A DNA stretch of 64,000 nucleotides from positions 62,001 to 126,000 of the forward strand of contig NZ_LIOL01000005.1 of NCBI RefSeq assembly GCF_001418005.1, given 5' to 3'. Shown one piece after another: positions 9,803-25,142 of this stretch. This stretch comes from Chelatococcus sambhunathii. Lineage in GTDB: Bacteria > Pseudomonadota > Alphaproteobacteria > Rhizobiales > Beijerinckiaceae. A model generated the notes under the pieces. It saw only the letters and a list, made by a program, of their open reading frames with translations, was not told the DNA's origin and ran no database searches. A program made the position numbers and the translations under genes. Every line of letters starts with the position of its first letter. The first letter of the stretch is position 1.

Positions 9803-9849
9803 TTGACAGTGCCGCTCATCCAGTTGCAGATTATTTGTATACCAACAAA
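9803..9849 (+). promoter_or_regulatory. Promoter/operator of the nicotinate-dehydrogenase operon
   Basis: A perfect TTGACA box lies at 9803-9808. It is followed by the pseudo-palindrome TTTGTATACCAACAAA at 9834-9849 (TTTGT, six bases, ACAAA). With the preceding AGATTA the motif spans 22 bp (9828-9849). Its reverse complement recurs at 23843-23864 with two differences. The site ends 58 bases before the first gene of the operon, a position suitable for repression. The rest of the 257-base gap (9651-9907) shows no gene. Confidence 0.65.
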
Positions 9850-9907
9850 AAACTGATCGGCATTGCTGATGCCGTCAGAGGGTGAACATCAGTTTCGGGA
9901 GGCATCG

Positions 9908-10759
9908 ATGTACCTCCGTCCGCGGACCCTCGACGAAGCGCTCGGCGCGCTCGCGACAACGGGCGCGCAAGTCCTGGCCGGCGGCACGGATGTCTTTCCG
10001 GCCCTCGGCGACCGGCCGCAGGCGCGCCCCTTCCTCGACATCTCGGCGCTGCCGGAGCTGCGCGGCATCGGCATGGGGCCGGACCATGTGCGCATCGGCG
10101 CCGCAACCACCTGGACCGAGGTCGCGAGGGCAGACCTGCCGCGCGGCTTCGACGCCCTGAAGGCCGCTGCACGCGAGGTCGGCTCCATCCAGATCCAGAA
10201 CCGCGGCACGATCGCCGGCAATCTCTGCAACGCCTCGCCCGCCGCCGACGGCGTGCCGCCGCTGATCGCGCTCGATGCCGAGGTCGAGCTCGCCTCCCGC
10301 GCCGGCATCCGCCGCCTGCCGCTCGCCGCCTTCATCTCGGGCTATCGCCGCACGGAGCGGCGCGAGGACGAGATCGTCACGGCGGTGCTCGTGCCCCATG
10401 CCATGACGGATGCCCGCTCCGTCTTCCTCAAGCTCGGCGCGCGGCGCTATCTCGTCATCTCCATCGTCATGGTCGCGGCCATGCTGCGCACCGACGAGAC
10501 GGGCCGCATCGACGCGGCGCGCGTCGCGGTGGGTTCCTGCTCGGCCGTGGCCCAGCGCCTGCCGGCGCTGGAAGCGGCGCTCATCGGCAAGCCGGCCGCG
10601 GCCGGTATCGGCACGGCCGTCGCGGCCGCGCATCTTGCCCCCCTTTCCCCCATTGACGACGTGCGCGCCACCGGTGCCTACCGCGCGGATGCGGCCGAGA
10701 CGCTCGTCGCCCGCGCGCTCGAAGCCTGCGTGCGCGATGCGGCCAAGGAGGCCGCCTGA
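9908..10759 (+). CDS. Molybdenum hydroxylase FAD subunit (probable nicotinate dehydrogenase)
   Basis: The 283-residue medium subunit of a xanthine-dehydrogenase-family enzyme. It carries FAD and passes electrons from the iron-sulfur subunit to the final acceptor. The ATG at 9908 is preceded by GGGAGG and gives the standard start MYLRPRTLDEAL. FAD motifs are LAGGTDVFP (about 31-39), IGAATTW, the conserved QIQNRGTIAGNLCNASPAADGVPPL around residues 97-121 and LKLGARRYL further on. It heads the operon and ends one base before the start codon of the fused Fe-S/Mo subunit. The substrate assignment (nicotinate) comes from the 6-hydroxynicotinate reductase and enamidase homologues nearby, not from this subunit. 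Confidence 0.85.
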   Translation: MYLRPRTLDEALGALATTGAQVLAGGTDVFPALGDRPQARPFLDISALPELRGIGMGPDHVRIGAATTWTEVARADLPRGFDALKAAAREVGSIQIQNRGTIAGNLCNASPAADGVPPLIALDAEVELASRAGIRRLPLAAFISGYRRTERREDEIVTAVLVPHAMTDARSVFLKLGARRYLVISIVMVAAMLRTDETGRIDAARVAVGSCSAVAQRLPALEAALIGKPAAAGIGTAVAAAHLAPLSPIDDVRATGAYRADAAETLVARALEACVRDAAKEAA

Positions 10760-10760
10760 C

Positions 10761-13550
10761 ATGCTCGACCGGGTTGCCGCAACCGAGAGCCACGCCGGCC
10801 TCGCCCTCACCGTGAACGGCCGGACGGTCGAGGTCACCGCCTCGCCCGCCGCGCGCCTCTCCAGGGTGCTGCGCGACGACCTCGGCCTCACGGGCACCAA
10901 GGTCGGCTGCGACGCCGGCGACTGCGGCGCCTGCTCCGTGCTCGTCGACGGCGAGGCCGTCTGCTCCTGTCTCGTCGCCGCCGGGCAGGTCGAGGGCTGC
11001 AGCGTCACTACTGTCGAAGGCCTGCCGACCGACCACCCCGTCGCCGGGCGCCTCGAGGAAGCCTTTCTACGCCACGGCGCCGCCCAGTGCGGCATCTGCA
11101 CGCCGGGCATGCTGGTCGCCGCCGTCGCGCTGCTCGCCCGCAACGAACGGCCGGGCGAGGTCGAGGTGCTCGACGCCATCGGTGGCGTGCTCTGCCGCTG
11201 CACCGGCTATCGCAAGATCGTCGCCGCCATCCTCGACGTGGCGGCCGAGGCGCGGGCCGAAGTGCTGCCGGAGGGCGGCGAGGCCGTCGGCGCCCGCATC
11301 CGCCGTCTCGACGGGCTGAAAAAGGTGCGCGGCACCGACATCTTCGGCGCCGACGAGGCGCCGGCCGATGCGCTCGTCCTCCGGGCCGTGCGCAGCCCCT
11401 ACCACCGCGCCGCTTTCACCTTCGGCGACATCGACGCCTTCCTCGCCCGCCATCCCGGCATCGTGCGCGTCTTCACGGCGAAGGACGTGCCGGGCGAGAA
11501 CTGCTACGGCGTCATCCCGCCCTTCGCCGACCAGCCGGTCTTCGCCGAGACGGAGGCGCGCTTCCGCGGCGAGGCTGTGGCGGCCATCGTCGGCGAGGCC
11601 GCGGCCATGGCCGCGCTCGACCTGTCCGACTTCCCCGTCACCTGGCAGGAGCTGCCGGCCAATACGACGATCGATGCGGCGCTCGCGGAAGACGCGCCGC
11701 TCGTGCACACGGGCCGCGCGGGCAACATCCTCGTCGGCGGCCGCGTCGTCAGGGGCGATGTCGAGGCCGCGCTCGAGAAGGCCGACGTGGTTGTCGACGG
11801 CGAATTCGAAACCGGCTTCGTCGAGCACGCCTATATCGAGCCGGAGGCCGGCTTTGCCCGCCGCGTCGGCGAGCGCATCGAGGTGCAGGCCTGCACCCAG
11901 GCGCCCTACATGGACCGCGACGACGTCGCCAAGGTGCTCGGCATCGCGCCCGAGGCCGTGCGCATCATACCGACCGCCGTCGGCGGCGGCTTCGGCTCCA
12001 AGCTCGACCTCTCGGTGCAGCCCTTCGTCGCCGTCGCCGCGTGGCACCTCGACCGGCCGGTGCGCATGACCTACACGCGCCCCGAGTCGATCATGACGAC
12101 CACGAAGCGCCACCCGGCGCGTATACGGGCACGGGCCGGCGCGATGAAGGACGGCAGGCTCGTCGGACTCGATTTCCACGGCGACTTCAACACCGGCGCT
12201 TATTCCTCCTGGGGCCCGACGGTGGCAAACCGCGTGCCGGTGCACGCCTCCGGTCCCTATTACGTGCCGCATTACCGGGCGTTGACGCGCGCCGTGCACA
12301 CGCACCTGGTGCCCGCCGGCGCGTTCCGCGGCTTCGGCGTGCCGCAGGCGAGCATCGCGCAGGAGCAACTCTACGACGAGCTCGCCGACAGGATCGGCAT
12401 GGACCGGCTGGAATTTCGCCTGCGCAACGCGCTGCGCGCCGACCAGCCGACCGTGACCGGCCAGGTGCTCGGCGAAGGCGTCGGCATCCGCGCCTGTTTC
12501 GAAGCCCTCGTGCCGCACTGGCAGCGCGCGCGGGCCGAGGCGGCCGCCTTCAATGCGACGAGCGAGCGCAAGGACGACGGCCGGCTGCGCCGCGGCGTCG
12601 GCGTCGCCGGCATGTGGTACGGCTGCGGCAACACCTCGTTGCCCAACCCCTCCACCATCCGCGTCGGCCTCAAGCGCGACGGGCGCATCGGGCTGCATCA
12701 GGGCGCGGTCGACATCGGCCAGGGCTCCAACACCGTCATCACCCAGATCTGCGCCGACGCGCTCGGCGCGCCGATTGCCCGCTTCGACCTCGTCTCGGCC
12801 GACACGGATCTGACGCCCGACTGCGGCAAGACCTCCGCCTCGCGCCAGACCTTCGTGACCGGCAAGGCCGCCGAACTCGCGGGCCGCGCGCTGCGCGCCG
12901 CCATCCTGCGCCTCGCCAATGCCGGCGAGGGCGCGACGGTCACTTTCGCCGACGATACGGTCACCGTGCGCGACGGCGGCCACGAGCGCGCCATCGCCCT
13001 GGCCGATCTGCCGGCCGACGAGCACGGCTACCTGCTGACCGGCGAAGCCACCTTCGACCCGCCGACGAGCCCGCTCGATGCCGACGGCCAGGGCGTCCCC
13101 TACGCCGTCTACGGCTTCGGCGCCCATATGGTGGAGGTCGAGGTTGACACCGCGCTCGGCACGGTGAAGGCCCTCAAGATCACCGCGGCGCACGACGTCG
13201 GCCGCGCCATCAACCCGACCCTCGTCGAGGGACAGATCGAGGGCGGCGCCGCGCAGGGCCTCGGCCTCGCCCTCATGGAGGAGTTCTTCCCTGGCAAGGG
13301 GGAGAACCTGCACGACTATCTCGTCCCCTCGGCCGGGGACATGCCGCCGGTCGAGTCCATTCTCATCGAGGATGCCTCGCCCATCGGTCCCTTCGGCGCC
13401 AAGGGCATCGGCGAACAGGCGCTGATCCCGACCGCCCCGGCCATCCTCAACGCCATTCACGACGCCGCCGGTGTGCGCATCCGCCGCGTGCCGGCAACGC
13501 CCGACCGGGTGCGCGCCGCGATTCTCGCCGCCAGAAGCGTACGAGGCTGA
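10761..13550 (+). CDS. Fused 2Fe-2S / molybdopterin subunit of molybdenum hydroxylase (probable nicotinate dehydrogenase)
   Basis: A 929-residue fusion of the small and large subunits found separately in many relatives. Residues 1-160 hold two 2Fe-2S clusters: C50, C55, C58, C70, then C110, C113, C145, C147. From about 175 the molybdopterin domain follows with GGGFGSK, the AFRGFGVPQ segment and, near the C-terminus, KGIGEQALIPTAP with the Glu expected to be the catalytic base. With the FAD subunit it would hydroxylate nicotinate at C6 to 6-hydroxynicotinate using water. Generic annotation would be xanthine dehydrogenase; context argues against purines. Maturation factors for the Mo cofactor are not in the window. 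The next gene starts one base after its stop. Confidence 0.85.
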   Translation: MLDRVAATESHAGLALTVNGRTVEVTASPAARLSRVLRDDLGLTGTKVGCDAGDCGACSVLVDGEAVCSCLVAAGQVEGCSVTTVEGLPTDHPVAGRLEEAFLRHGAAQCGICTPGMLVAAVALLARNERPGEVEVLDAIGGVLCRCTGYRKIVAAILDVAAEARAEVLPEGGEAVGARIRRLDGLKKVRGTDIFGADEAPADALVLRAVRSPYHRAAFTFGDIDAFLARHPGIVRVFTAKDVPGENCYGVIPPFADQPVFAETEARFRGEAVAAIVGEAAAMAALDLSDFPVTWQELPANTTIDAALAEDAPLVHTGRAGNILVGGRVVRGDVEAALEKADVVVDGEFETGFVEHAYIEPEAGFARRVGERIEVQACTQAPYMDRDDVAKVLGIAPEAVRIIPTAVGGGFGSKLDLSVQPFVAVAAWHLDRPVRMTYTRPESIMTTTKRHPARIRARAGAMKDGRLVGLDFHGDFNTGAYSSWGPTVANRVPVHASGPYYVPHYRALTRAVHTHLVPAGAFRGFGVPQASIAQEQLYDELADRIGMDRLEFRLRNALRADQPTVTGQVLGEGVGIRACFEALVPHWQRARAEAAAFNATSERKDDGRLRRGVGVAGMWYGCGNTSLPNPSTIRVGLKRDGRIGLHQGAVDIGQGSNTVITQICADALGAPIARFDLVSADTDLTPDCGKTSASRQTFVTGKAAELAGRALRAAILRLANAGEGATVTFADDTVTVRDGGHERAIALADLPADEHGYLLTGEATFDPPTSPLDADGQGVPYAVYGFGAHMVEVEVDTALGTVKALKITAAHDVGRAINPTLVEGQIEGGAAQGLGLALMEEFFPGKGENLHDYLVPSAGDMPPVESILIEDASPIGPFGAKGIGEQALIPTAPAILNAIHDAAGVRIRRVPATPDRVRAAILAARSVRG

Positions 13551-13551
13551 C

Positions 13552-15045
13552 ATGCAGAACGACCAGGCGGCCGCCCCGGGCGCGGCCAGGGACGACAAGA
13601 TCCGCTGTGATGCCTGCCCCGTGATGTGCTACATCAAGCCGGGCATGACCGGTGCCTGCGACCGCTACGCCAACCACGAGGGCGAGTTGGTCCGCGTCGA
13701 CCCGCACGTCGTGCTGGAGCGTACGCTCGCCCAGGGCGGCAACGTGGTGCCCTTCAACAGGGGCGAATGGGACGGCACCATCGTCCAGGGGGAGGAGACC
13801 TTCGTTACCGCCATCGGCGCCGGCACCACCTATCCCGACTACAAGCCCGCGCCCTTCATCGTCTCGTCCGAGGTGGACGGAGTGGACATGGTGACGGTCG
13901 TCACCGAAGGCATCTTCAGCTATTGCGGCGTCAAGGTGAAGATCGACACCGACCGCCACCTCGGCCCGGAGCAGGCGACCGTGCGCGTCGAGGGTGAGGC
14001 CGTCGGCCACGTCACCACCGGCGAATACGGCTCGCAGATGCTGTCGCTCGGCGGCGTGCATCACCTGACCGGCGGCTCGAAGAAGGAGGGCCGCGTCACC
14101 TGCGACGCGCTGCTCGACCTGTGTAACGGCAAGGCGGTGGAAATGACCATCGACGACGGCGCCACCGTCGTCGTTCAGGCCGGCAAGCCGCCGATCGTCA
14201 ACGGCGTCGCTGAGGAGCGCATGCGCGTCGGCTGCGGCTCGGCCACCATCGGCATGTTCGCCAAGCAGTGGCACGGCAAGGTCGACGAGGTGGTGGTAGT
14301 CGACGATCACATCACCGGCGTTCTCTCCGAGCACCAGGCCGGCAAGCTGCTCGACATCCCCGAGACCGGCATCAAGATGAAGGGCCGGCGCTCGACCCCG
14401 GGCCGCTACTTCCAGGTGGCGGAGCCGGGCACGGGCTGGGGCGGCACCAACATCTCCGATCCCCTGTCGATCCTCGGCCCCTTCGATCCCGAGGTGGCGC
14501 GACCGGGCCTCCGGCTCCTCATGGTCTCCACCACCGGCGAGCACCATGCCTATTACGAGCTCGACGAGGCGCTCACGCCGGTCGAGCGCGCGCTGCCCGA
14601 GGCGCTCAGCCAGTCGGTCGAGCGCATCAAGGAGAACTGCGAGCCCGCCCTGTGCACCGTGCTCTTCATGGGCGGGGCCGGCGGCTCGCTGCGCGCCGGC
14701 GTCACCGAGAACCCAGTTCGCCTCACCCTCTCCGTCAAGGACGCGCTCACCTATGTCACCTGCGGCGGCGCTCCGGTCTATGTCTGGCCTGGCGGCGGCA
14801 TCACCTTCATGGTGGACGTGACGCGCGTGCCGGAGAACGCCTTCGGCTACGTGCCGACACCGGCCCTCGTCGCGCCCATCGAGTTCACCATGCGGCTGAG
14901 CGACTACGAGGCGCTCGGCGGCCATATGGGCGAGGTCCGTCCGGTTTCGTCGCTCGAGCCGGGCGAGGCGCGCCGGCAGGTGCCGCACCGCCTGGACAAT
15001 CCCTGGCCGCTGTCGCCGCAGAAGGCGAAAAGGTCGCACGGATGA
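13552..15045 (+). CDS. hnr: 6-hydroxynicotinate reductase homologue
   Basis: A 497-residue protein resembling the 6-hydroxynicotinate reductase of the Eubacterium barkeri nicotinate pathway, which reduces 6-hydroxynicotinate to 1,4,5,6-tetrahydro-6-oxonicotinate with reduced ferredoxin. The N-terminus carries C19-x2-C22-x3-C26-x9-C36, suited to an iron-sulfur cluster. The middle part (TEGIFSYCGVKVKIDTD, EYGSQMLSLGGVHHLTGG) recalls flavin-containing oxidoreductases of the coenzyme F420 hydrogenase beta type, an uncertain resemblance. The start at 13552 follows the previous stop by one base; the longer open frame upstream overlaps that gene. The next gene overlaps by ATGA. A ferredoxin gene under the same predicted operator (23897) is the likely electron donor. 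Confidence 0.82.
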   Translation: MQNDQAAAPGAARDDKIRCDACPVMCYIKPGMTGACDRYANHEGELVRVDPHVVLERTLAQGGNVVPFNRGEWDGTIVQGEETFVTAIGAGTTYPDYKPAPFIVSSEVDGVDMVTVVTEGIFSYCGVKVKIDTDRHLGPEQATVRVEGEAVGHVTTGEYGSQMLSLGGVHHLTGGSKKEGRVTCDALLDLCNGKAVEMTIDDGATVVVQAGKPPIVNGVAEERMRVGCGSATIGMFAKQWHGKVDEVVVVDDHITGVLSEHQAGKLLDIPETGIKMKGRRSTPGRYFQVAEPGTGWGGTNISDPLSILGPFDPEVARPGLRLLMVSTTGEHHAYYELDEALTPVERALPEALSQSVERIKENCEPALCTVLFMGGAGGSLRAGVTENPVRLTLSVKDALTYVTCGGAPVYVWPGGGITFMVDVTRVPENAFGYVPTPALVAPIEFTMRLSDYEALGGHMGEVRPVSSLEPGEARRQVPHRLDNPWPLSPQKAKRSHG

Positions 15046-15962
15046 GGGACGCCGCCACCGCCCGCATGCTGCCCGACGGGCGCCGGCTGCACCTGCAGCA
15101 CGGCCCGATCGACCTCGTCATCGAGGCCTTCGGCGAAGCGGGCGAGGTGGCGCGCGCCTACGAGGCGGCCGCGCGGCGCTTCGCGACCCTGCTCGACGAG
15201 CTGTGCGCCGAACTGCCGGCCCTGCGGCGGCAGGCGCGCCCCGGCGATCCGCCGCTCGCCGGCACCGTCGCGCGGCGCATGCAGGGAGCCGTCATGCCCT
15301 ATGCGGGGGCTGGCTTCATCACGCCCATGGCGGCCGTTGCCGGCGCCGATGCGGACGAGGTCCTCGCCGCCATGCTCACCGTGGCACGGCTCGACAAGGC
15401 CTATGTCAACAACGGCGGCGACATCGCGCTCCATCTTAGCGCGGGCAGCACCTTCTCCATCGGCATGGTCGACAGACCGGACGAGCCGGGCCTCTTCGGC
15501 ACCCTCAGCCTCACCGCTGCGCACGGCGTCGGCGGCATCGCGACGAGCGGCCGGCACGGGCGCAGCTTCTCGCTGGGCATCGCCGACGCGGTCACCGTGC
15601 TCGCCCGCGACGCGGCGGCGGCGGATGCGGCCGCAACCATGATCGCCAACGCCGTCGACCTGCCGGGCCATCCCGCCGTCATGCGCGTGCCCGCCTCGGC
15701 CCTCGCGCCGGAGAGCGACCTCGGCGAGCGCCCGGTGACGCGCGCCGTGCGCTGCCTCGACGCCATCGACATCGCGGCGGCGCTCGACGCCGGCTGCGGC
15801 TTCGCGCAGGCGCTTCTCCACCGCGGACTGATCGTTGCCGCGGCATTGCATTTGCAAGGTCACACGCGAACGGTAGGCTCGCTGCCGGCCGCACCCACCG
15901 TCGCGGCGCCCGCGCCGCGGCTGGCTGACACTTTCCGGGAGACGGGTCCGATCCATGCCTGA
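15042..15962 (+). CDS. UPF0280 family protein
   Basis: A 306-residue protein of uncharacterised family UPF0280. The start codon overlaps the upstream stop (ATGA). Recognisable segments are HGPIDLVIEAFGE near residue 20, MQGAVMPYAGAGFITPMAAVAGADADEV (about 80-107) and YVNNGGDIALHL, where the NNGGDIA motif resembles that of ApbE-type FMN transferases, to which the family is thought to be structurally related. No signal peptide is visible, so it is probably cytosolic. Its place between 6-hydroxynicotinate reductase and two PF06684 genes, with overlapping ends, argues for a role in the same pathway, for example flavin attachment to, or activation of, a pathway enzyme, or a step after ring opening. 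None of this is proven. Confidence 0.78.
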   Translation: MRDAATARMLPDGRRLHLQHGPIDLVIEAFGEAGEVARAYEAAARRFATLLDELCAELPALRRQARPGDPPLAGTVARRMQGAVMPYAGAGFITPMAAVAGADADEVLAAMLTVARLDKAYVNNGGDIALHLSAGSTFSIGMVDRPDEPGLFGTLSLTAAHGVGGIATSGRHGRSFSLGIADAVTVLARDAAAADAAATMIANAVDLPGHPAVMRVPASALAPESDLGERPVTRAVRCLDAIDIAAALDAGCGFAQALLHRGLIVAAALHLQGHTRTVGSLPAAPTVAAPAPRLADTFRETGPIHA

Positions 15963-16539
15963 CGTCGATGTCCGCAAGCGCCTGATCACGGTGGAGGAGA
16001 TCTTCCACGAGGGCGGCCGGCCGGCCGCAAGGCCCCTCAAGCGCGGCGCCATCGTCGCCGTGATCGCCAATCCCTTCGCCGGCCGCCATGTCGAGGACAT
16101 CGCCGGCTTCATGGACGACCTGAAGCCCCTCGGCCTCGCCATGGCGCGGGACCTCATCGCCGCCCTCGGCGGCGACGTCGCGGCGATCGAGGGCTACGGC
16201 AAGGGCGCCATCGTCGGCGCCGCGGGCGAATTGGAGCACGGCGCGCTGTGGCACGTGCCCGGCGGCTATGCCATGCGCGAGGCTCTGGGCGATGCCAAGG
16301 CCATCGTGCCCTCGACAAAGAAGGTCGGCGGGCCGGGCGCGCGCCTCGACGTGCCGGTCACGCACATCAACGCTTCCTACGTGCGCAGCCATTTCGACGC
16401 CATGGAGGTGGGCATCCCCGATTCCCCGCGCGCCGACGAGATGGCGGTCATTCTCGTCATGACGACGGGGCCGCGCATCCACGCCCGTGTCGGCGGGCTG
16501 AAGGCGAGCGAGATCAAGGGAGAGGACGGCCTGAGATGA
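15955..16539 (+). CDS. PF06684 (DUF1185) 'amino acid synthesis' family protein, copy 1
   Basis: A 194-residue protein of PF06684. Solved members have a variant of the Bacillus chorismate mutase fold; the biochemical role is unknown. Landmarks are ANPFAGRHVEDI (about 38-49), GYGKGAIVGAAGELEHGALW (about 80-99), STKKVGGPGARLDVP and the end VGGLKASEIKGEDGLR. The gene overlaps the UPF0280 gene by 8 bases and the next copy by 4, so translation is probably coupled. Copy 2 is the same length and keeps every one of these motifs, so the pair arose by duplication and may form a hetero-oligomer. Context suggests a job in nicotinate breakdown, possibly on the 2-formylglutarate branch; this is inference. 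Confidence 0.8.
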   Translation: MPDVDVRKRLITVEEIFHEGGRPAARPLKRGAIVAVIANPFAGRHVEDIAGFMDDLKPLGLAMARDLIAALGGDVAAIEGYGKGAIVGAAGELEHGALWHVPGGYAMREALGDAKAIVPSTKKVGGPGARLDVPVTHINASYVRSHFDAMEVGIPDSPRADEMAVILVMTTGPRIHARVGGLKASEIKGEDGLR

Positions 16540-17120
16540 AGGCGAAGATCCGCAAGATCGCGACATTCGTCGAGGAAACCCACACCGAGATGGGCCGGCT
16601 GGTGAGCCCGCCGACCCGAAAGGCCGCGGCTGTCGCCGTGATCGAGAACCCCTTTGCCGGGCGCTATGTCGAGGACCTCGGCGAGCTCATGGACATCGGC
16701 GAGGAGCTCGGCGGTCTCCTGGCGGAGAAGGCCGTCGCGGCGCTGGGCATCGAGGGGACTGCGGCCGAGAGCTACGGTAAGGCCGCTCTCGTCGGCGAGA
16801 ACGGGGAACTGGAGCACGCCGCCGCCATCCTGCACCCGCGCATGGGCACACCCGTGCGCAAGGTGCTGGGCAAGGGTGCGGCCCTCATTCCTTCGTCGAA
16901 GAAGCGAGGCGGGCCGGGCGCGGTGCTCGACATCCCGCTCGGCCACAAGGATGCCGCCTATGTGCGCAGCCACTTCGACGGCATGGAGGTGAGCCTCAAT
17001 GACGCGCCGCGGGCCGGCGAAATCCTGGTGGCGGTCGCCGTCACCGATTCCGGCCGACCGCTGCCGCGCGTCGGCGGGCTGACGAAACAAGAGATCAAGG
17101 GTGAGGACGGCTTGCGCTGA
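16536..17120 (+). CDS. PF06684 (DUF1185) 'amino acid synthesis' family protein, copy 2
   Basis: A 194-residue paralogue of the preceding gene, starting within its stop codon (ATGA). It repeats the landmarks IENPFAGRYVEDLGELMD, SYGKAALVGENGELEHAAA, SSKKRGGPGAVLDIP, YVRSHFDGMEV and the end KQEIKGEDGLR. Differences are concentrated in the N-terminal 30 residues and around residues 95-110. Both copies retain the Lys of YGK, Glu-His of GELEH and the STKK/SSKK pair, so neither is obviously dead. The following substrate-binding-protein gene starts 48 bases downstream, after which the operon becomes transport genes. Confidence 0.8.
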   Translation: MKAKIRKIATFVEETHTEMGRLVSPPTRKAAAVAVIENPFAGRYVEDLGELMDIGEELGGLLAEKAVAALGIEGTAAESYGKAALVGENGELEHAAAILHPRMGTPVRKVLGKGAALIPSSKKRGGPGAVLDIPLGHKDAAYVRSHFDGMEVSLNDAPRAGEILVAVAVTDSGRPLPRVGGLTKQEIKGEDGLR

Positions 17121-17168: not shown

Positions 17169-18374
17169 ATGCGGACGAGATTGCGAAAATCGGTAGCCTT
17201 TGCAGCCCTGGCCATTGTCGCGGCCACCGGCGTCGCCCGAGCCCAGGGCGAGATCAAGATCGGCGAGATCAACAGCTATTCGGCCCTGCCGGCCTTCACC
17301 GAGCCCTACCGCAAGGGCTGGCAGCTCGCCATCGAGGAGATCAATGCCAAGGGCGGCGTCGACGGCAAGAAGCTCGTCGTCATTTCCAAGGACGACGCCG
17401 GCAAGCCGGCCGAGGCCGTGACGGCTGCCAACGAGCTCGTCTCGCGCGAGGGCGTGGCGCTCATCACCGGCACCTTCTTCTCGCACATCGGCCTGGCCGT
17501 GGCCGATTTCGCCAAGCAGAAGCAGGTGTTCTTCATGGCGGCCGAGCCGCTGACGGACGCCATCACCTGGTCCAAGGGCAACGACTACACCTTCCGCCTG
17601 CGTCCCTCCAACTACATGCAGGCGGCGATGCTGGCCGAAGAGGCGGCCAAGCTGCCGGCCAAGCGCTGGGCGACGGTGGCGCCGAACTACGAATACGGCC
17701 AGTCGGCCGTCGCCGTGTTCAAGGAGCTTCTCTCGAAGGCCCGCCCGGACATCGAATGGGTGGACGAGCAGTGGCCGCCGCAAGGCAAGATCGACGCCGG
17801 CGCGGTGGCGCAGGCCCTGCTCGCGTCGAAACCCGAAGCCATCCTCAACGTCACTTTCGGCGCCGACCTGGTGAAATTCGTGCGCGAGGGTAACACCCGC
17901 GGTCTCTTCAAGGACCGTTCGGTCGTCAGCTTCCTCACCGGCGAACCGGAATATCTCGACCCGCTCAAGGACGAGACTCCCAAGGGCTGGATCGTCACCG
18001 GCTACCCCTGGTACGACATCAAGACGCCGGAACACGACGCCTTCCTCAAGGCCTACCAGGCGAAGTTCAACGATTATCCACGCCTTGGCTCCATCGTCGG
18101 CTACGGCACGATGAAGGCGGTCGCGGCCGTCCTCGCCAAGGCCGGCTCGACGGAGACCGACAAGCTCGTCGCCGCCGCCAAGGGCGTCGAGGTCGACACG
18201 CCCTTCGGCAAGATCGTCTTCCGGGCGACCGACCACCAGTCGACGCTCGGCGCCTATGTCGGCAAGACCGATGTGCGCGACGGCAAGGGCGTGATGGTCG
18301 ATTCCGTCTATCGCGACGGCGCGAACTACCTGCCGTCCGAAGAGGACGTGAAGCGGCTCCGGCCGCAGGGATGA
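17169..18374 (+). CDS. ABC transporter periplasmic substrate-binding protein (Leu/Ile/Val-type)
   Basis: A 401-residue type I periplasmic binding protein of the hydrophobic/branched-chain amino acid transporter group (HAAT). A Sec signal peptide spans about residues 1-25 (positively charged start, hydrophobic stretch, cleavage after GVARA). The mature protein starts with GEIKIGEINSYSALPAFTEPYRKG. Members of this group also carry aromatic carboxylates, so nicotinate or a hydroxylated form is a plausible cargo given its place in the nicotinate operon. Two strong hairpins lie in the 250-base gap before the permease gene and could raise the amount of this transcript segment relative to the membrane genes. 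Confidence 0.9.
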   Translation: MRTRLRKSVAFAALAIVAATGVARAQGEIKIGEINSYSALPAFTEPYRKGWQLAIEEINAKGGVDGKKLVVISKDDAGKPAEAVTAANELVSREGVALITGTFFSHIGLAVADFAKQKQVFFMAAEPLTDAITWSKGNDYTFRLRPSNYMQAAMLAEEAAKLPAKRWATVAPNYEYGQSAVAVFKELLSKARPDIEWVDEQWPPQGKIDAGAVAQALLASKPEAILNVTFGADLVKFVREGNTRGLFKDRSVVSFLTGEPEYLDPLKDETPKGWIVTGYPWYDIKTPEHDAFLKAYQAKFNDYPRLGSIVGYGTMKAVAAVLAKAGSTETDKLVAAAKGVEVDTPFGKIVFRATDHQSTLGAYVGKTDVRDGKGVMVDSVYRDGANYLPSEEDVKRLRPQG

Positions 18375-18445
18375 AGTTGCGGCTGAGGCCTCGGGGAGCG
18401 CCGCTGCCGTAACGAGAGCGGCTGTTCCCCTCGCGCTCGGGGGCA

Positions 18446-18535: not shown

Positions 18536-18624
18536 ACCGGGGCACTGTCGCTCACGTTCGTGCAAGCTACCGCCCGAACCTGGCGCATGACGCCGGGGCT
18601 GACCAGAACCAGAGGGTCGCGTCC

Positions 18625-20586
18625 GTGGAATTCATCGTCGTCCAGTTCCTGACAGGCCTCGCCAGCGCGGCCTCCCTGTTCCTCGTCGCGTCCGGCCTGT
18701 CGATCATCTTCGGCGTCACGCGCATCGTGAACTTCGCCCACGGCGCCTTCTACATGCTCGGCGCCTATGTGGCCTATACGCTCACGGAGCGCTTCGAGGG
18801 CTTCTTCGGCTTCTGGGGCGGCATCGTCGCCGCGGCCCTCGTCGTCGCGGCCGTCGGCGCGCTGCTGGAGATCGTGCTGCTGCGCCGCATCTATCGCGCG
18901 CCGGAGCTGTTCCAGCTGCTCGCCACCTTCGGCGTGACGCTGATGGTGCAGGACCTCGTCGTCATGATCTGGGGGCCGGAGGACCTCGTAGGCCCGCGGG
19001 CGCCGGGCCTGCGCGGCGCCGTCGATATCCTCGGTCTCGCGGTGCCCACCTACGACCTCTTCCTCATCGTGCTCGGCCCGCTCGTTCTCGGCGGCCTGTG
19101 GATCCTCTTCCACCGCACGCGCTGGGGCGTGCTCGTGCGCGCGGCGACACAGGACCGCGACATGGTGGCGGCCCTCGGTGTCAACCAGACCTGGCTGTTC
19201 ACCTCGGTCTTCGCGCTCGGGATCTTCCTCGCCGGCCTCGGCGGCGCGCTGCAGATCCCGCGCAACGCCGTCACCCATCTCATGGACCTTTCGATCATCG
19301 TCGAGGTCTTCGTCGTCGTCGTCATCGGCGGCCTCGGCAGCGTGCTCGGCGCCTTCATCGCCGCCGTGCTCGTCTCGGAACTCAACGCCTTCGGCATCCT
19401 GATCTTCCCCAAGATCTCGATCGTCCTCGTCTTCCTTGTCATGGCCTGCGTGCTCATCGTGCGGCCATGGGGCCTGCTCGGGCGCCCCGAAGGGCCGGCG
19501 CGCCAGCCGGCCGGGCTCAGCATCCGCCCGTGGCAGCCGATGAGCCAGAACCAGCGCCTCGTCATGCTCGCCGTCGTCGTCGCCGCGGGTTTTGCGCCCT
19601 TCGTCACCGGCGACTACGCGCTGACGGTGCTGGCCGAGATCGCCGTCTTCGCCCTCTTCGCGGCGAGCCTGCACTTCCTGATGACGGTCGGCGGCCTCGC
19701 CTCCTTCGGCCATGCGGCCTATTTCGGCCTCGGCGCCTATGGCGCGGCCTTCGCCACCACCATGTTCGGCATGCCGATGATCGGCTCGCTCCTGCTCGGG
19801 CCGCTGCTCGGGGTGGCCGGCGCCATCCTCTTCGGCTGGTTCTGCGTGCGCCTGTCGGGTGTCTATTTTGCCATGCTGACGCTCGCCTTCGCGCAGATCG
19901 CATGGTCCGTCGCCTTCCAGTGGGTCGAGGTCACCGGCGGCGACAACGGCATCCTCGGCGTGTGGCCGGCGAGCTGGGCCGCTAGCCCCGCCGCCTTCTA
20001 CTGGCTCGCCCTCGCCGTCTCCGTCGCCGGCATCGTGGCGCTGCGCGTACTCGTCTTCTCGCCCTTCGGCTACGCGCTCAGGGCAACGCGCGATTCCGCC
20101 CTGCGCTCGGAGGCGATCGGCATCGACCGCTCGCGCGTGCAGTGGGCCGCCTTCGTCATCGCCGGAACGTTCGCGGGCATCGCTGGGGCGCTCTTCGCCT
20201 TCCTGAAGGGCAGCGTCTTCCCGGACAACCTCGCCATCCCGATGTCGGTCGACGGCCTCGTCATGGTGCTGCTCGGCGGCATCGAGACGGTGTCGGGGGC
20301 CGTCGTCGGCGCCATCGTCTACAAGGCGCTCGCCATCTGGCTCGTCAGCCAGACGGACCTGTCGAAGCTCGTGCTCGGCGCCATCATCGTGCTGCTCGTC
20401 GTCGCCTTCCCCAAGGGCATCGTCGGCTTCGCGGAGGACCTCCTGGCCCGCCGCCGCGCCAAGGCCGACGACGGCGGCGCCGCGGCGCGGACCACACCCG
20501 CCAAGGCACCCGCCAAGGCGCCCGCTGCGACCTCCGGCAGCGGCGCCGCCCCGATCGCCGCCCCCAAGATGGAGGCCGCACGATGA
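18625..20586 (+). CDS. ABC transporter permease, fused LivH-LivM type
   Basis: A 653-residue inner-membrane protein joining the two permeases that are usually separate. The N-terminal half (about 1-290) is LivH-like (VASGLSIIFGVTRIVNFAHGAFYMLGAY). The C-terminal half (about 315-615) is LivM-like (LHFLMTVGGLASFGHAAYFGLGAYGAA, ALRATRDSALRSEAIGID). Both halves have several hydrophobic helices. The last 40 residues are an Ala/Lys/Pro-rich cytoplasmic tail that does not belong to either family. Translation starts with GTG. The stop overlaps the first ATPase gene (ATGA). One fused chain could supply both halves of the translocation channel. Confidence 0.92.
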   Translation: MEFIVVQFLTGLASAASLFLVASGLSIIFGVTRIVNFAHGAFYMLGAYVAYTLTERFEGFFGFWGGIVAAALVVAAVGALLEIVLLRRIYRAPELFQLLATFGVTLMVQDLVVMIWGPEDLVGPRAPGLRGAVDILGLAVPTYDLFLIVLGPLVLGGLWILFHRTRWGVLVRAATQDRDMVAALGVNQTWLFTSVFALGIFLAGLGGALQIPRNAVTHLMDLSIIVEVFVVVVIGGLGSVLGAFIAAVLVSELNAFGILIFPKISIVLVFLVMACVLIVRPWGLLGRPEGPARQPAGLSIRPWQPMSQNQRLVMLAVVVAAGFAPFVTGDYALTVLAEIAVFALFAASLHFLMTVGGLASFGHAAYFGLGAYGAAFATTMFGMPMIGSLLLGPLLGVAGAILFGWFCVRLSGVYFAMLTLAFAQIAWSVAFQWVEVTGGDNGILGVWPASWAASPAAFYWLALAVSVAGIVALRVLVFSPFGYALRATRDSALRSEAIGIDRSRVQWAAFVIAGTFAGIAGALFAFLKGSVFPDNLAIPMSVDGLVMVLLGGIETVSGAVVGAIVYKALAIWLVSQTDLSKLVLGAIIVLLVVAFPKGIVGFAEDLLARRRAKADDGGAAARTTPAKAPAKAPAATSGSGAAPIAAPKMEAAR

Positions 20587-21356
20587 GCGCGCCCATCCTC
20601 GAAGTCGAGAAGCTGTCGAAGTCCTATGGCGGCGTGCATGCGGTCAGAGGCGTTTCCTTCACCCTCGCCGCCGGCGAGATCCTCGCCCTCATCGGCCCCA
20701 ACGGCGCCGGCAAGAGCACGTGCTTCAACATGCTCAACGGCCAGATCGGCCGCGATACGGGCTCGGTGAAGATCCTTGGCCGCGACACGACGGGCCTGCG
20801 TCCGCGCGAGATCTGGCGCCTCGGCGTCGGCCGCACCTTCCAGATCACCGCCACCTATCCCTCGATGACCGTGCGCGAGAACGTGCAGGTCGCGCTGCTC
20901 TCGCACCACCGCGAGCTCGGTCGCCTGTTCGGCTTTGCTGGCGCGCGCCACCGCGCCGAGGCCGACCGGCTGCTCGGACTCGTCGGCATGCGCGACCTCG
21001 CGGAGCGACCGTGCGGCGAGCTCGCCTATGGCGACCTGAAGCGCCTCGAACTCGCCATCGCCCTCGTGAATGAGCCGAAGCTCCTCCTGATGGACGAGCC
21101 AACGGCCGGCATGGCACCGAGGGAGCGGGTCGCGCTGATGCGCCTTACCGCGACGATCGCGCGCGAGCAGTCGATCGGCGTGCTCTTCACCGAGCACGAC
21201 ATGGACGTGGTCTTCGAGCATGCCGACCGGATCATGGTGCTGAACCGCGGCAGCCTCATTGCGGGCGGCACGCCGGCGGAGGTGCGCAACAACCCGGACG
21301 TCAAGGCCGTGTATCTCGGCGAAGGCAGCGTCTACGGCGGAGAGGCCGCGGCATGA
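20583..21356 (+). CDS. ABC transporter ATP-binding protein, LivG type
   Basis: A 257-residue ATPase energising the importer. Walker A is GPNGAGKST (about 36-44). The signature region is unusual: the family's LSxGxxR reads LAYGDLKRLELA. Walker B is LLLMDEPTAGMAP, and the switch His is in FTEHDMDVVF. The C-terminal extension (LIAGGTPAEVRNNPDVKAVYLGEG) is typical of LivG. The start ATG overlaps the permease stop and the stop overlaps the next ATPase start, so all membrane and motor subunits are translationally coupled. Confidence 0.93.
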   Translation: MSAPILEVEKLSKSYGGVHAVRGVSFTLAAGEILALIGPNGAGKSTCFNMLNGQIGRDTGSVKILGRDTTGLRPREIWRLGVGRTFQITATYPSMTVRENVQVALLSHHRELGRLFGFAGARHRAEADRLLGLVGMRDLAERPCGELAYGDLKRLELAIALVNEPKLLLMDEPTAGMAPRERVALMRLTATIAREQSIGVLFTEHDMDVVFEHADRIMVLNRGSLIAGGTPAEVRNNPDVKAVYLGEGSVYGGEAAA

Positions 21357-22057
21357 AACTCGAAGTCCACCAGCTCAACAGCTTCTACGGGCCCGCCCAT
21401 ATCCTCTTCGACGTCGACATCAATGTCGGCGCCGGAGAGGTGGTGGCTCTGCTCGGCCGCAACGGTGCCGGAAAGTCCACCACCTTCCGCTCCATCGTCG
21501 GGCTCGTCGCCCGGCGCGAGGGGCGCATCCTCTTCGAGGGCGAGGACATCACGGCGCGCCCGACGCACGAGATCGTGCGCCGCGGCCTCGGCTACGTGCC
21601 CGAGGACCGGCGCATCTTCACCGAGCTGACGGTCGAGGAGAACCTCATGGTCGGCGAGCAGCCGGAGCGGACGGGCGCCCCCCGCTGGACGCCGGAGAAG
21701 CTCTATGCGCTCTTTCCCAATCTCGGCGAGATGCGGGGGCGCCTTGGCGGACGCATGAGCGGCGGCGAGCAGCAGATGCTGACCATCGCCCGCACGCTCA
21801 TGGGCAACCCTTCCCTCGTCCTCCTCGACGAGCCGTCGGAGGGGCTCGCCCCCAAGATCGTCGAAGAGATGGCGAACGCCATCCTCGCCATGAAGAACGA
21901 GGGCCTCAGCATCGTCCTGTCGGAGCAGAACCTGCATTTCGCGCGGCTGATCTCGGACAGGGCCTATATCATCGAAAGCGGGCGCATCCGCTTCGGCGGC
22001 ACGATTCGCGAGCTCGAGGAGAGCCCCGACATTCGTGACGCTTATCTTGCAGTGTGA
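21353..22057 (+). CDS. ABC transporter ATP-binding protein, LivF type
   Basis: A 234-residue second ATPase of the importer. Walker A GRNGAGKST sits around residues 35-43, the signature MSGGEQQML around 137-145, and Walker B LVLLDEPSEGLAP shortly after. The opening (NSFYGPAHILFDVDINVGAGEVVALLGRNG) and the end (IRELEESPDIRDAYLAV) are the standard LivF form. It starts inside the stop codon of the LivG-type gene. The MarR regulator follows 37 bases downstream and is probably the last gene of the operon. Confidence 0.93.
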   Translation: MKLEVHQLNSFYGPAHILFDVDINVGAGEVVALLGRNGAGKSTTFRSIVGLVARREGRILFEGEDITARPTHEIVRRGLGYVPEDRRIFTELTVEENLMVGEQPERTGAPRWTPEKLYALFPNLGEMRGRLGGRMSGGEQQMLTIARTLMGNPSLVLLDEPSEGLAPKIVEEMANAILAMKNEGLSIVLSEQNLHFARLISDRAYIIESGRIRFGGTIRELEESPDIRDAYLAV

Positions 22058-22094
22058 TAGGCGGCGAGAGATCGCCGCCCGGACCGGAGTATCG

Positions 22095-22526
22095 ATGACC
22101 TCAGCCGTTTCGATGCCAGCCTATGTTCTCGACGAGCAGATCGGCTTCATCCTGCGCCAGGTGAGCCAGCGCCACACGACCATCTTCATGACCATGATGG
22201 GCGAGGACCTGACTCCGACCCAATGGGCTGCGCTCGCCAAGCTCCACCAGGCCGGCCCGCTGTCGCAGAACCTCCTCGGCCGGCAGACGGCCATGGACGC
22301 CGCCACCATCAAGGGCGTCGTCGACCGGCTGACGAAGCGCGGCCTGACCGGGACGAGCCCCGACCCCGACGATGGCCGGCGCCTGCTCGTGGCCCTGACG
22401 CCGGAGGGCGAGGCGACCGTCGCACGCTGCCTGCCCCGGGCCGCCGCCATCTCCGAGGAAACGCTGAAGGAACTGAGCGCCGCGGAACGCGCGACGCTGA
22501 TCGCCCTGCTGCAGAAGATGCTCTGA
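22095..22526 (+). CDS. MarR family regulator, candidate nicotinate-pathway repressor
   Basis: A 143-residue winged-helix regulator. The ATG at 22095 is chosen because of the GGAG 5 bases before it; the frame is open upstream to 22035 but those codons overlap the ATPase gene. The DNA-binding part reads LTPTQWAALAKLHQAG ... LLGRQTAMDAATIKGVVDRLTKRGL (about 46-92) and the wing DPDDGRRLLVALTPEG. NicR of Pseudomonas putida, which responds to 6-hydroxynicotinate, is also a MarR protein. This one, last in the dehydrogenase/transport operon, is the obvious candidate to bind the two shared palindromes at 9828-9849 and 23843-23864. Its ligand is not known. Confidence 0.88.
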   Translation: MTSAVSMPAYVLDEQIGFILRQVSQRHTTIFMTMMGEDLTPTQWAALAKLHQAGPLSQNLLGRQTAMDAATIKGVVDRLTKRGLTGTSPDPDDGRRLLVALTPEGEATVARCLPRAAAISEETLKELSAAERATLIALLQKML

Positions 22527-22556: not shown

Positions 22557-22562
22557 TGCGCC

Positions 22563-23759
22563 CTATCGCGCCACGATCTCCGGCATGCGCGTCGCCGGCG
22601 GGGTGTTGCGGCTGCGCTGCGTGCGCACGATCCCGTCGATGATGGTCATGCCGATGCCCGGCAGGTCGCCGAGGCGCACGGACTCGAGCAGGTCCTTGCC
22701 CGCCGAGTGCTGGGCCTTGTCCATCAGCACGAAATCGGCCGCGCGGCCGACCTCGACCAGGCCGCAGTCGAGCTGGCGCATGCGCGCCGTGTTGCCGGTG
22801 GCGAAGCAGAAGGCCACCTCTGCCGGCACGTCGCCGAGCGAGGAGAGCAGCGAGACCATGCGCAGGATGCCGAGCGGCTGCACGCCGGAGCCTGCCGGCG
22901 CATCCGTCCCGAGGATGACGCGGTTGAGGTCGCCCATCTCGCGCGCGATGCGCAGGGTGTAGAGCGCGGCCCGCTCGTTGCCGTTGTGCACCAGCTCGAG
23001 GCCGCGCTTGCAGCCCTCGCAGATGCAGCGGATCTGGTCGTCCGGCAGGGCCGTGTGGCCGCCGTTGATGTGGCCGACGACATCCGTGTCCGCCTCCAGC
23101 ACCACGTCCTTGTCGATGAGGCCGGAGCCGGGGATGGACGGCCCGCCGGTGTGGATGGTCGACTGGATGCCGTACTTGCGCGCCCAGGCCACCATCTTGC
23201 GCGCCGTCGGCCCGTCCTTGACGCCGCCGAGGCCAACCTCGCCGAGCAGCTTGACGCCCGCGTCGGCCAGGTCCTTGAAATCCTGTTCCGTCATGTCCGG
23301 CTCGATGCAGGGTGCGCCGGCGTGGATCTTCACGCCGCTCGGGCGGAAGGCGGAGAAGGTGCGCTGGGCGTAGATCGCCATGGCCTTGAGCCCGACGACG
23401 TCGCGCGGTCGGCCCGGCGTGTGCACCTCGCCGGCCGAGATCATGGTGGTGACGCCGCCGTGCAGATTGCTGTCGATCCAGTTGAGCTGCTGCTGGCGCG
23501 GCGTCCAGTCGCCGGCGACGGGATGGACGTGGCTGTCGATGAGGCCCGGTGTCAGCACCGTGCCGTTGGCGTCGATGACCTCGCTCGCGCCGTCGGTGTC
23601 GACGTCCTTCTCGCGGCCGACGGCGGCGATCCGGCCGTCGATCGCGACCACCGTGTCGCCGTCGAGGATCGGCCGCTCGAGATCGCCGCTCAGAATCAGG
23701 CCGATGTTGCGAATGACGAGCTTGCCCTTCCCGCCCTGCTGTACCGCATCGTGCGCCAT
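22563..23759 (-). CDS. ena: Enamidase (amidohydrolase) homologue
   Basis: A 398-residue amidohydrolase closely resembling the enamidase of Eubacterium barkeri, which opens the ring of 1,4,5,6-tetrahydro-6-oxonicotinate to give 2-formylglutarate and ammonia. Metal-site residues are in place: H77 and H79 (LIDSHVHP), E174 (GEVGLGG), H203 (HTGGPSIPG), H230 (GHINGG) and D286 (LGTDAPAG). Shared segments include RNIGLILSGD at the start, LHGGVTTMISAG, PGRPRD and the end SRNTPPATR. Imidazolonepropionase or dihydroorotase are less likely because these specific segments would differ. It is transcribed toward the MarR gene, separated from it by a hairpin, and is divergent from the ferredoxin across the shared operator. 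Confidence 0.88.
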   Translation of the reverse strand: MAHDAVQQGGKGKLVIRNIGLILSGDLERPILDGDTVVAIDGRIAAVGREKDVDTDGASEVIDANGTVLTPGLIDSHVHPVAGDWTPRQQQLNWIDSNLHGGVTTMISAGEVHTPGRPRDVVGLKAMAIYAQRTFSAFRPSGVKIHAGAPCIEPDMTEQDFKDLADAGVKLLGEVGLGGVKDGPTARKMVAWARKYGIQSTIHTGGPSIPGSGLIDKDVVLEADTDVVGHINGGHTALPDDQIRCICEGCKRGLELVHNGNERAALYTLRIAREMGDLNRVILGTDAPAGSGVQPLGILRMVSLLSSLGDVPAEVAFCFATGNTARMRQLDCGLVEVGRAADFVLMDKAQHSAGKDLLESVRLGDLPGIGMTIIDGIVRTQRSRNTPPATRMPEIVAR

Positions 23760-23896: not shown

Positions 23897-24226
23897 ATGA
23901 CCTATGTCGTGACCGATGGCTGCATCCGTTGCAAGTACCAGGATTGCGTGGAGGTGTGCCCGGTCGACTGCTTCTACGAGGGGGAGACGATGCTCGTCAT
24001 CCATCCGGACGAATGCATCGACTGCGGCGTGTGTGAGCCGGAATGTCCGGCCGACGCGATCGTCTCCGACACTGACCCGCGCGCCGACCGCTGGCTGCCC
24101 GTCAATGCGAAATATGCCGCGATCTGGCCCAACATCACCGATAAGGGACCGGTCCCGGACGATGCGGACGCGTGGAAAGACGTCCCCGACAAGGAGAAAT
24201 TTCTATTTAGTACGGAAAAAATGTAA
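23897..24226 (+). CDS. fdxA: 7Fe ferredoxin (FdxA type), probable donor to 6-hydroxynicotinate reductase
   Basis: A 109-residue soluble ferredoxin with one 3Fe-4S and one 4Fe-4S cluster. Cysteines C9, C17 and C50 fit the 3Fe site, and C21, C40, C43, C46 the 4Fe site; C12 and C25 are additional. A strong GGAGG lies 6 bases before the ATG. The first 95 residues match the FdxA family closely; the last dozen ([11 protein letters not shown]) are encoded by unusually AT-rich DNA and end differently from common members. FdxA is often a housekeeping gene, but here it is divergent from enamidase, shares the predicted nicotinate operator and is followed by a ferredoxin-NADP reductase. A pathway role is therefore likely. 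Confidence 0.93.
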
Positions 24227-24244
24227 ATACTTGCAATTCCGTAC
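24210..24244 (+). promoter_or_regulatory. Inverted repeat across the ferredoxin stop, upstream of fpr
   Basis: GTACGGAA (24210-24217) and TTCCGTAC (24237-24244) form a perfect 8-bp inverted repeat with a 19-base AT-rich spacer containing the ferredoxin stop codon. It lies 125 bases before fpr. It could be a terminator-like structure or an operator for fpr; the absence of a T-run favours the second. Confidence 0.4.
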
Positions 24245-24368
24245 GAGATCGTGCAAATAGAAGCTGGTTACCCCTTTTCCCCCGCGCGGCGCCCCGCTAT
24301 GTGAAGGCGCGGCACTCAACCCCGCGGCACCGGCCGCGACGCAGATCCGGGAGCATGGACGAGAAGCC

Positions 24369-25142
24369 ATGAGCAACTTCAACCAAGAGCGCGTTCTGAG
24401 CGTGCATCACTGGACGGACACGCTGTTCTCCTTCACGACGACGCGCGACCCCGGCTTCCGCTTCAAGAACGGCCAGTTCACGATGATCGGCATCGAGGTG
24501 GAGGGAAAACCCCTCCTGCGGGCCTACAGCGTCGTGAGCCCCAACTACGACGAGAAGCTGGAGTTCTTCTCCATCAAGGTGCCGGACGGGCCGCTGACCT
24601 CCCGCCTGCAGCACCTGAAGGAAGGTGATCCCATCATCGTCGGCCGCAAGGCCACCGGCACCCTCGTGCTCGACAACCTGATGCATGGCCGCAACCTCTA
24701 CCTGCTCGGCACCGGCACCGGCCTTGCCCCCTTCCTCAGCCTCATCCGCGATCCGGAGACCTACGAGCGCTTCGAGAAGGTCGTCCTCCTGCACGGCTGC
24801 CGCCAGGTGTCCGAGCTCGCCTATGGCGAGATGATCACCCGCGACCTGCCGGAGGACGAATTCCTCGGCGAGGAGATCCGCTCGAAGCTGATCTACTATC
24901 CGACCGTGACGCGCGAGCCCTTCCGCAACCGCGGCCGCATCACCGATCTCATCACGACCAGCAAGCTCTTCGGCGACATCGGCCTGCCGCCGATCGACGC
25001 CGAGAACGACCGCCTGATGCTCTGCGGCAGCCCGCAGATGATCCGCGACCTCAAGATCATCCTCGAGGAGCGCGGCTTCAACGAAGGCAACCACGGCGAG
25101 CCAGGCCATTTCGTCATCGAGAAGGCCTTCGCCGAGCGCTGA
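24369..25142 (+). CDS. fpr: Ferredoxin-NADP(+) reductase
   Basis: A 257-residue cytosolic FAD enzyme moving electrons between NADPH and ferredoxin or flavodoxin. Flavin motif [12 protein letters not shown] (about 55-66), the NADP-binding [24 protein letters not shown] (about 115-138) and [19 protein letters not shown] and the C-terminal VIEKAFAER are the bacterial subclass I form. It follows the ferredoxin gene in the same direction after 142 bases. In the nicotinate context it could recharge the ferredoxin used by 6-hydroxynicotinate reductase. It may equally be the cell's general, stress-related FPR, since there is room for its own promoter. A strong terminator follows. Confidence 0.94.

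Follow-up and report, generated by a model that had tools for sequence, protein, structure and literature searches.

A probable nicotinate degradation island in Chelatococcus sambhunathii: partner proteins of 6-hydroxynicotinate reductase and a candidate alternative ring-opening enzyme

What does the gene block at positions 9,803 to 25,142 of a 64,000-nucleotide stretch of Chelatococcus sambhunathii DNA (contig NZ_LIOL01000005.1, positions 62,001 to 126,000; hereafter the window) break down, and what do the poorly understood proteins encoded in it contribute? A preliminary description had read the block as an island for the reductive, ring-saturating degradation of nicotinate, and we find it highly probable that the island indeed serves the import and reductive ring opening of this compound. 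As such it is one more nicotinate cluster of a kind already known (PMC3511419). The new value lies in partner proteins that the description left unmentioned, one UPF0280 (COG2122) protein and two PF06684 proteins encoded between the reductase and the importer, and in an alternative ring-opening enzyme found elsewhere. Our joint proposal is tentative, and as a whole we hold it with less than even confidence: UPF0280/COG2122 would be a distinct class of ApbE-fold cofactor transferases with another catalytic apparatus, attaching flavin to 6-hydroxynicotinate reductase (HNR); the pathway would come in two forms at lactam opening, one with a metal-dependent enamidase and one with a caprolactamase-like enzyme that spends ATP, and the two would have replaced each other several times; and PF06684 proteins would process aminomethylene or formyl dicarboxylates common to nicotinate-type and trigonelline degradation. 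Gene content, homology, co-occurrence and folds were computed; from these we infer the reactions in Chelatococcus and the roles of UPF0280 and of the two PF06684 proteins, here called AAS1 and AAS2.

The genome (4.37 Mb in 35 contigs) carries the island in a window of 68% GC. Proteins were identified by Pfam/NCBIfam and PDB searches, and the genes central to the argument are the following.

9908..10759, plus strand: FAD subunit of a molybdenum hydroxylase (nicotinate dehydrogenase, NdhF-like); PF00941 E 1.5e-44, PF03450
10761..13550, plus strand: fused [2Fe-2S] and Mo-cofactor hydroxylase subunit, 929 aa; PF00111, PF01799, PF01315, PF02738, PF20256
13552..15045, plus strand: HNR homologue; 42% identity to the Eubacterium barkeri locus, same annotation in plasmid records
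15042..15962, plus strand: UPF0280/COG2122 protein with ApbE flavin-transferase fold; NF003322 394 bits, cut-off 290
15955..16539, plus strand: PF06684 protein AAS1 ('amino acid synthesis' in other annotations), AAS1 clade; PF06684 241 bits, cut-off 27
16536..17120, plus strand: PF06684 protein AAS2; PF06684 248 bits, cut-off 27; PDB 2qtp (SPO0826) E 5e-93
22563..23759, minus strand: enamidase (amidohydrolase superfamily); PDB 2VUN 372 bits, 46% identity to the E. barkeri locus

The assignment is carried by the two key proteins. The best PDB match of the amidohydrolase is the E. barkeri enamidase 2VUN (E 4e-110, residues 13-395; next sequence 7e-7), and the segments HVH, GEVGLG, HTGG, HINGG and (T/N)DAP, which we take to hold the metal ligands, align without gaps. 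HNR gave no Pfam family over cut-off; its identity to the homologue beside the enamidase of E. barkeri VPI 5359 extends over 93% of its length. Comparison with E. barkeri, which the preliminary description had proposed as a check, matches both proteins either to its enamidase or to the reductase homologue of its cluster and supports the reductive route. HNR cysteines 19, 22, 26, 36, 228 and 363 are invariant wherever aligned, and a GcvT C-terminal barrel is weakly hinted at in 7 of the 9 members (Pfam E 0.0066 at best). The molybdenum hydroxylase of the earlier account proves to be a separate FAD subunit, 35% identical to its homologue in the E. barkeri cluster, and a single chain combining the [2Fe-2S] and Mo domains. 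Its Pfam family is clear and no NCBIfam equivalog scored over its cut-off. Within the run from the FAD subunit gene through AAS2, adjoining genes either overlap or are separated by 1 bp.

UPF0280 and the reductase

Conserved co-occurrence had also been suggested as a check. Among 397 Pseudomonadota genomes, HNR was found in 38 and UPF0280 over the NF003322 cut-off in the identical 38, after six of 44 genomes had been dropped for HNR (E 3.8e-4 to 8.4e-4, 32% over ~63 residues) and two of 40 for UPF0280 (below cut-off). The UPF0280 match lies downstream of the HNR match on the same strand in every case, at most 477 bp away and in 36 of the 38 at most 118 bp. Since the 38 genomes represent only 20 genera, the raw probability of the pairing means little. 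We also inspected a detailed set of 33 genomes from 29 genera, comprising 21 of the 38 (Chelatococcus included) and 12 further HNR genomes. At all 33 loci UPF0280 stands beside HNR or one gene away, with a MarR gene between them in a few, and the pairing extends into Bacillota. This constancy, together with an identical order of the island genes in three genomes of the same genus, rules out chance. Misread open reading frames or a chance assembly were rejected as explanations, the order being kept within the genus and the core set recurring across Pseudomonadota and Bacillota.

In one genome (G016) HNR is split into two overlapping frames (L052:8725-10274) and the adjoining UPF0280 frame is open, reflecting either a sequencing error or a decaying gene. 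No HNR was seen in viral contigs among 32 candidate stretches.

An AlphaFold2 (AF2) model of UPF0280, built from 10 sequences, reached a predicted local distance difference test score (pLDDT) of 81 and a predicted template modelling score (pTM) of 0.82. It aligns to DVU1097 with Z 19.6 and to ApbE, Ftp and FmnB proteins with VIA Z 14.7-16.4 over 204-225 residues (root-mean-square deviation 3.0-3.8); the next unrelated fold follows at Z 7.8. The family profile reaches Vibrio cholerae ApbE at E 0.0011, and UPF0280 itself scores 20.1 bits against Pfam PF02424, below the cut-off of 25.6. The E. barkeri reductase is said to have been described by Alhapel in 2006 as carrying covalent flavin and Fe-S clusters. 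Because of the fold and this reported covalent flavin, attachment of flavin by an altered ApbE-type enzyme is our first choice. It is a realistic possibility, held with slightly under even confidence, that UPF0280 equips HNR with a cofactor, most likely a covalently attached flavin. One speculative attachment site in HNR is T92, a position occupied by Ser or Thr in 39 of the 39 sequences covering it.

Several observations weigh against this. The ApbE segment with His257, the catalytic residue of the V. cholerae enzyme (PMC12052999), is shortened in UPF0280, and none of 40 HNR sequences (G016 excluded) contains D-x-x-[ST]-G-A-[ST], the target motif of ApbE. The AF2 model of HNR (9 sequences) has a mean pLDDT of 65 and gave no PDB match with E <= 0.001. 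A Methanosarcina member of COG2122, MA1715, is called a sulfur-trafficking protein in a passage of PMC12068725. Such points raise an alternative that we consider rather doubtful and yet worth serious attention, in which UPF0280 would be no flavin transferase and would instead act in sulfur/persulfide or Fe-S maturation of HNR, the kind of role proposed for COG2122 in the homocysteine synthesis of methanogens and Desulfovibrio. In Desulfovibrio COG2122 is needed for homocysteine synthesis together with DUF39, and NIL/ferredoxin proteins are part of the required set; the same source, in its remarks on the family, holds COG2122 to be distantly related to ApbE and to lack its flavin-binding region (PMC5764234). 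The six invariant cysteines of HNR would also suit a sulfur or Fe-S role, as do its missing target motif and the shortened histidine segment of UPF0280. On the other side, the ApbE-family fold spans UPF0280 residues 11-290 at Z of about 15-16, and the ApbE-like TSG and ADA.AT segments are retained; the reported covalent flavin of the E. barkeri enzyme speaks for flavin too. We therefore keep flavin attachment as the preferred, tentative role of UPF0280. Our literature search for a link between HNR and UPF0280 found nothing under 6-hydroxynicotinate reductase, nor among the COG2122, MA1715 and UPF0280 matches listed. The survey gives UPF0280/COG2122 and PF06684, both poorly understood, a named partner and a class of substrates with which they can be tested as enzymes, and an answer on COG2122 obtained with the nicotinate reductase would carry over to homocysteine synthesis in Desulfovibrio.

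Ring opening and the PF06684 proteins

The island of Chelatococcus has the enamidase form of the pathway, and in other genomes our survey suggests an ATP-dependent form of ring opening. Of the 33 HNR genomes, 19 possess an enamidase orthologue (at least 59% identity). Nothing in the remaining 14 reaches this level; G428 and G444 each encode a homologue with 41-42% identity, and in the others any match is weak or partial. Exactly these 14 encode a HyuA-type protein with at least 60% identity to the HyuA of one such locus (L058), the best HyuA match in the 19 enamidase genomes being 48%; no genome of the 33 carries both types. HyuA is encoded no more than 8 kb from HNR in 12 of these genomes, and HyuB was called in 8 of the HyuA-type loci. 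The one HyuAB pair that was scanned (L058) is nearest to the caprolactamase CapA/CapB in NCBIfam, at 488 and 297 bits against cut-offs of 1000 each, so that by its sequence the replacement belongs to the caprolactamase superfamily and is not the caprolactam enzyme itself. ATP-dependent enzymes of the HyuAB superfamily are described as hydrolysing lactams, six-membered valerolactams included (PMC8453981, PMC11033972). A description of an ATP-dependent variant of the nicotinate step was not found in our literature search.

On a FastTree HNR tree of 40 rows (G016 left out, Bacillota and deltaproteobacterial rows labelled as enamidase type) the two types interleave. At least four switches are needed, whereas 500 shuffled labellings require 11.2 on average and never fewer than 7. 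We read this as a few exchanges between the enamidase and the ATP-dependent lactamase.

Three HNR loci (L047, L048 and L057) encode nothing closely matching the window's FeS/Mo fusion protein and have instead a one-family protein of 1179-1296 aa, similar in size to nicB of Neorhizobium; the L057 member matches Mo hydroxylase profiles. The first enzyme of the pathway may thus be exchangeable too. Genome G235, which has no HNR, carries a PF06684 gene that directly precedes the gene of an enamidase-like protein (42%; L094:4080-5910); a Liv-type permease comes further on, and the group may belong to a different lactam or enamide pathway.

PF06684 proteins occur in 37 of the 38 HNR genomes and in 37 of the 359 others (Fisher test, uncorrected for phylogeny). 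In the tree of the family AAS2 groups with proteins from Bacillota and the deltaproteobacterium and AAS1 forms a separate clade. We tallied both by hand, taking from each genome one locus no longer than 20 kb; the single protein of G444, present twice in the tree through two starts, was counted as AAS1. AAS2 is found in 17 of 19 enamidase loci versus 1 of 14 HyuA-type loci, AAS1 in 16 and 12, respectively. Both island proteins belong to a catabolic cluster, and we propose, with low confidence, that AAS2 takes part in the ring-opening or enamine step and AAS1 in an aerobic follow-up. The exceptions count against these roles. AAS1 is absent from the loci of G233, G405, G410, G134 and G428; G405 and G410, both enamidase genomes, also lack AAS2 at their loci, and those of G134 and G428 are without any AAS. 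The missing AAS1 of G233 and the two loci devoid of AAS disfavour a strict need for these proteins. AAS2 furthermore adjoins hyuA genes in two cases, G332 and Neorhizobium, and since this HyuAB-type Neorhizobium plasmid has AAS1 and AAS2, a strict rule linking AAS2 to enamidase is contradicted.

We also considered whether the AAS proteins might be one and the same 2-formylglutarate decarboxylase in every organism. The route of E. barkeri is not known to include a decarboxylation at this point, and the presence of AAS2 there makes a universal decarboxylase unlikely; the idea is kept for AAS1 only.

An amino-acid-metabolism role was earlier proposed for PF06684 from the BB2672 and SPO0826 structures, by fold and gene context (PMC2954203), and the main text of that paper holds no word beginning with 'nicotin'. 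Here a catabolic role is suggested. In a wider sample of 20 PF06684 loci (L090-L109), drawn from 19 of the 37 HNR-free genomes that carry the family, we find aldehyde dehydrogenase family proteins in 16, luciferase-like monooxygenases in 14, alpha/beta hydrolases in 13 and flavin reductases in 12. Trigonelline rings are opened by a luciferase-like monooxygenase and a flavin reductase. Judged by gene content, most of the sampled loci appear to resemble trigonelline (tgn) degradation clusters.

Import, electron supply and substrate

The other genes named in the preliminary description were all found as well, so that the claimed block is real and its importer complete.

17169..18374, plus strand: ABC importer substrate-binding protein; PF13458 E 4e-71
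18625..20586, plus strand: fused LivH-LivM-type permease, named by eye; Sulfitobacter homologue annotated ABC transporter permease
20583..21356, plus strand: LivG-type ATPase, named by eye; Sulfitobacter homologue annotated ABC ATPase, 64%
21353..22057, plus strand: LivF-type ATPase, named by eye; Sulfitobacter homologue annotated ABC ATPase, 60%
22095..22526, plus strand: MarR-family regulator; PF01047
23897..24226, plus strand: FdxA-type ferredoxin; Fer4 and DUF3470, one of two genome copies
24369..25142, plus strand: ferredoxin-NADP reductase; NF008178 174 bits, below its cut-off of 390

The island therefore consists of eleven plus-strand genes (9908-22526), the enamidase on the minus strand and the two electron-transfer genes on the plus strand. 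A MarR homologue is present at 24 of the 33 HNR loci. Next to the island, at 27917-29709 on the minus strand, lies a major facilitator superfamily (MFS)-type transporter with a MarR-family gene of its own, both named by eye and apparently unrelated.

The idea of a dedicated electron supply has gained support. The island FdxA is 69% identical to the second copy, located elsewhere in the genome (G000:C6), and an extra FdxA is found at the cluster in 6 of the 33 genomes, each with another copy elsewhere. The ferredoxin reductase gene lies within 1 kb of the enamidase in 14 of the 19 enamidase genomes. These two observations support a putative split electron chain from NADPH through the reductase and ferredoxin to HNR. 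The E. barkeri HNR frame starts with a two-[4Fe-4S] ferredoxin-type domain, which the HNR of the window lacks. That both genes are ordinary housekeeping genes adjoining the island by chance we consider improbable. A single ferredoxin reductase (E <= 1e-20) in 26 of the 33 genomes would agree with such a role, as would its location on a contig other than that of the enamidase in 5 of the 19 enamidase genomes and the fact that only 2 of the 14 HyuA-type genomes have it no farther than 1 kb from HyuA. However, the closeness to enamidase holds even in G405 and G419, whose enamidase and HNR lie on separate contigs; G233, G383 and G387, which have two reductase copies, carry one of them at the cluster; and the island ferredoxin is an extra copy.

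It is also conceivable, at a very low probability, that the island degrades another N-heterocycle, such as a substituted or chlorinated nicotinate, isonicotinate or another pyridine carboxylate, using the same enzyme types. In 14 of the 33 genomes HNR is accompanied by a ring-opening enzyme that is not homologous to enamidase, so substrates could differ; the families of Mo hydroxylases and of Liv importers are also broad, and no equivalog cut-off was reached by the island's hydroxylase. Nicotinate itself is favoured by the enamidase, whose best match is a nicotinate enzyme, and by a nicotinamidase-family gene, which clustering places in the same 20-kb locus as HNR in 6 of the 33 genomes and near HNR in both ring-opening types (the one representative scanned scored over its NCBIfam cut-off). 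Genes annotated nicB, hnr, hyuA and hyuB furthermore share one 19-kb Neorhizobium stretch. In the growth tests of PMC3511419, strain SG-6C, a carrier of this kind of cluster, degraded both nicotinate and 6-hydroxynicotinate, and the latter was seen in transit. The 2VUN match, the content of the E. barkeri locus, the nicotinamidase and nicB neighbours and the SG-6C growth data make the assignment to nicotinate strong, and not new.

Nicotinate would accordingly enter through the Liv-type ABC importer, whose substrate we infer, and be converted to 6-hydroxynicotinate by the FAD subunit and the fused FeS/Mo hydroxylase. HNR, with its putative UPF0280-supplied flavin, would reduce this to 1,4,5,6-tetrahydro-6-oxonicotinate. 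Its electrons would come from NADPH through the adjacent ferredoxin reductase and ferredoxin, in place of the ferredoxin domain fused to the E. barkeri reductase. The enamidase would open the lactam to yield 2-formylglutarate and ammonia. AAS2 and AAS1 may act on the 2-(aminomethylene)- or 2-formyl-dicarboxylate products, AAS2 during ring opening or hydrolysis of the enamine, AAS1 in subsequent aerobic steps, for example decarboxylation toward glutarate semialdehyde. Kitts reportedly described ring reduction, deamination, decarboxylation and glutarate in Azorhizobium in 1992. A point against this scheme is that no glutarate CoA-transferase homologue was found in the Chelatococcus genome at E <= 1e-110.

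As a marker of these clusters glutarate CoA-transferase was rejected: a CaiB-type homologue is near HNR at 5 of the 33 loci, and its representative scores below the NCBIfam cut-off and matches 17 of the 33 genomes at E <= 1e-110, Chelatococcus not among them.

Comparison with known clusters

Such a cluster was described in 2012 in Azorhizobium, Bradyrhizobium and Rhodopseudomonas, the HNR cluster being conserved between SG-6C, Azorhizobium and others; the text of that account, as far as it concerns the cluster, does not name UPF0280 or PF06684 (PMC3511419). Trigonelline clusters share a PF06684 protein, the homologue TgnF, and thereby the use of this family in pyridine carboxylate degradation (PMC7913881). 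The loci in our sample that look like tgn clusters come from genomes without HNR and UPF0280.

Two plasmids show how the set varies among Pseudomonadota. That of Sulfitobacter pontiacus (L111) shares with Chelatococcus the enamidase (73%), ferredoxin reductase, FAD subunit, FeS/Mo protein and HNR as well as UPF0280, AAS1, AAS2, MarR and the importer, the families being annotated in the record. Unlike in Chelatococcus, enamidase and ferredoxin reductase lie upstream, the stretch has no FdxA match, and a ring-hydroxylating dioxygenase gene (L111:13058-14125) separates MarR from the importer. The plasmid of Neorhizobium sp. NCHU2750 (L110) has fpr, a Liv-type importer, MarR, hnr (74%), UPF0280, AAS1 and AAS2 in common with the island, and a gene annotated nicB is located ~8 kb upstream of hnr. 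Here hyuA and hyuB, of the ATP-dependent caprolactamase/oxoprolinase superfamily, adjoin, whereas no enamidase match is found in the 19-kb stretch.

Scanning with the 2VUN sequence returned the E. barkeri VPI 5359 locus (L079) and ten others. Two were excluded from the counts, L083, in which the contig end cuts HNR, and L089, with 25% identity to enamidase and no HNR. The nine loci whose contig continues past HNR (eight from Bacillota, one deltaproteobacterial) all have UPF0280 3' of HNR and an AAS gene. The E. barkeri locus resembles that of Chelatococcus in its HNR, hydroxylase subunits and enamidase, and in UPF0280 (33%) and an AAS protein 51% identical to AAS2. The two differ in how the parts are joined: in E. 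barkeri the ferredoxin domain is fused to HNR and the FeS and Mo parts of the hydroxylase are separate chains (three in all), whereas in Chelatococcus HNR stands without that domain and FeS and Mo are fused. To the set of E. barkeri the Chelatococcus island adds the Liv importer, the MarR regulator, an extra FdxA, the ferredoxin reductase and a second PF06684 gene, AAS1.

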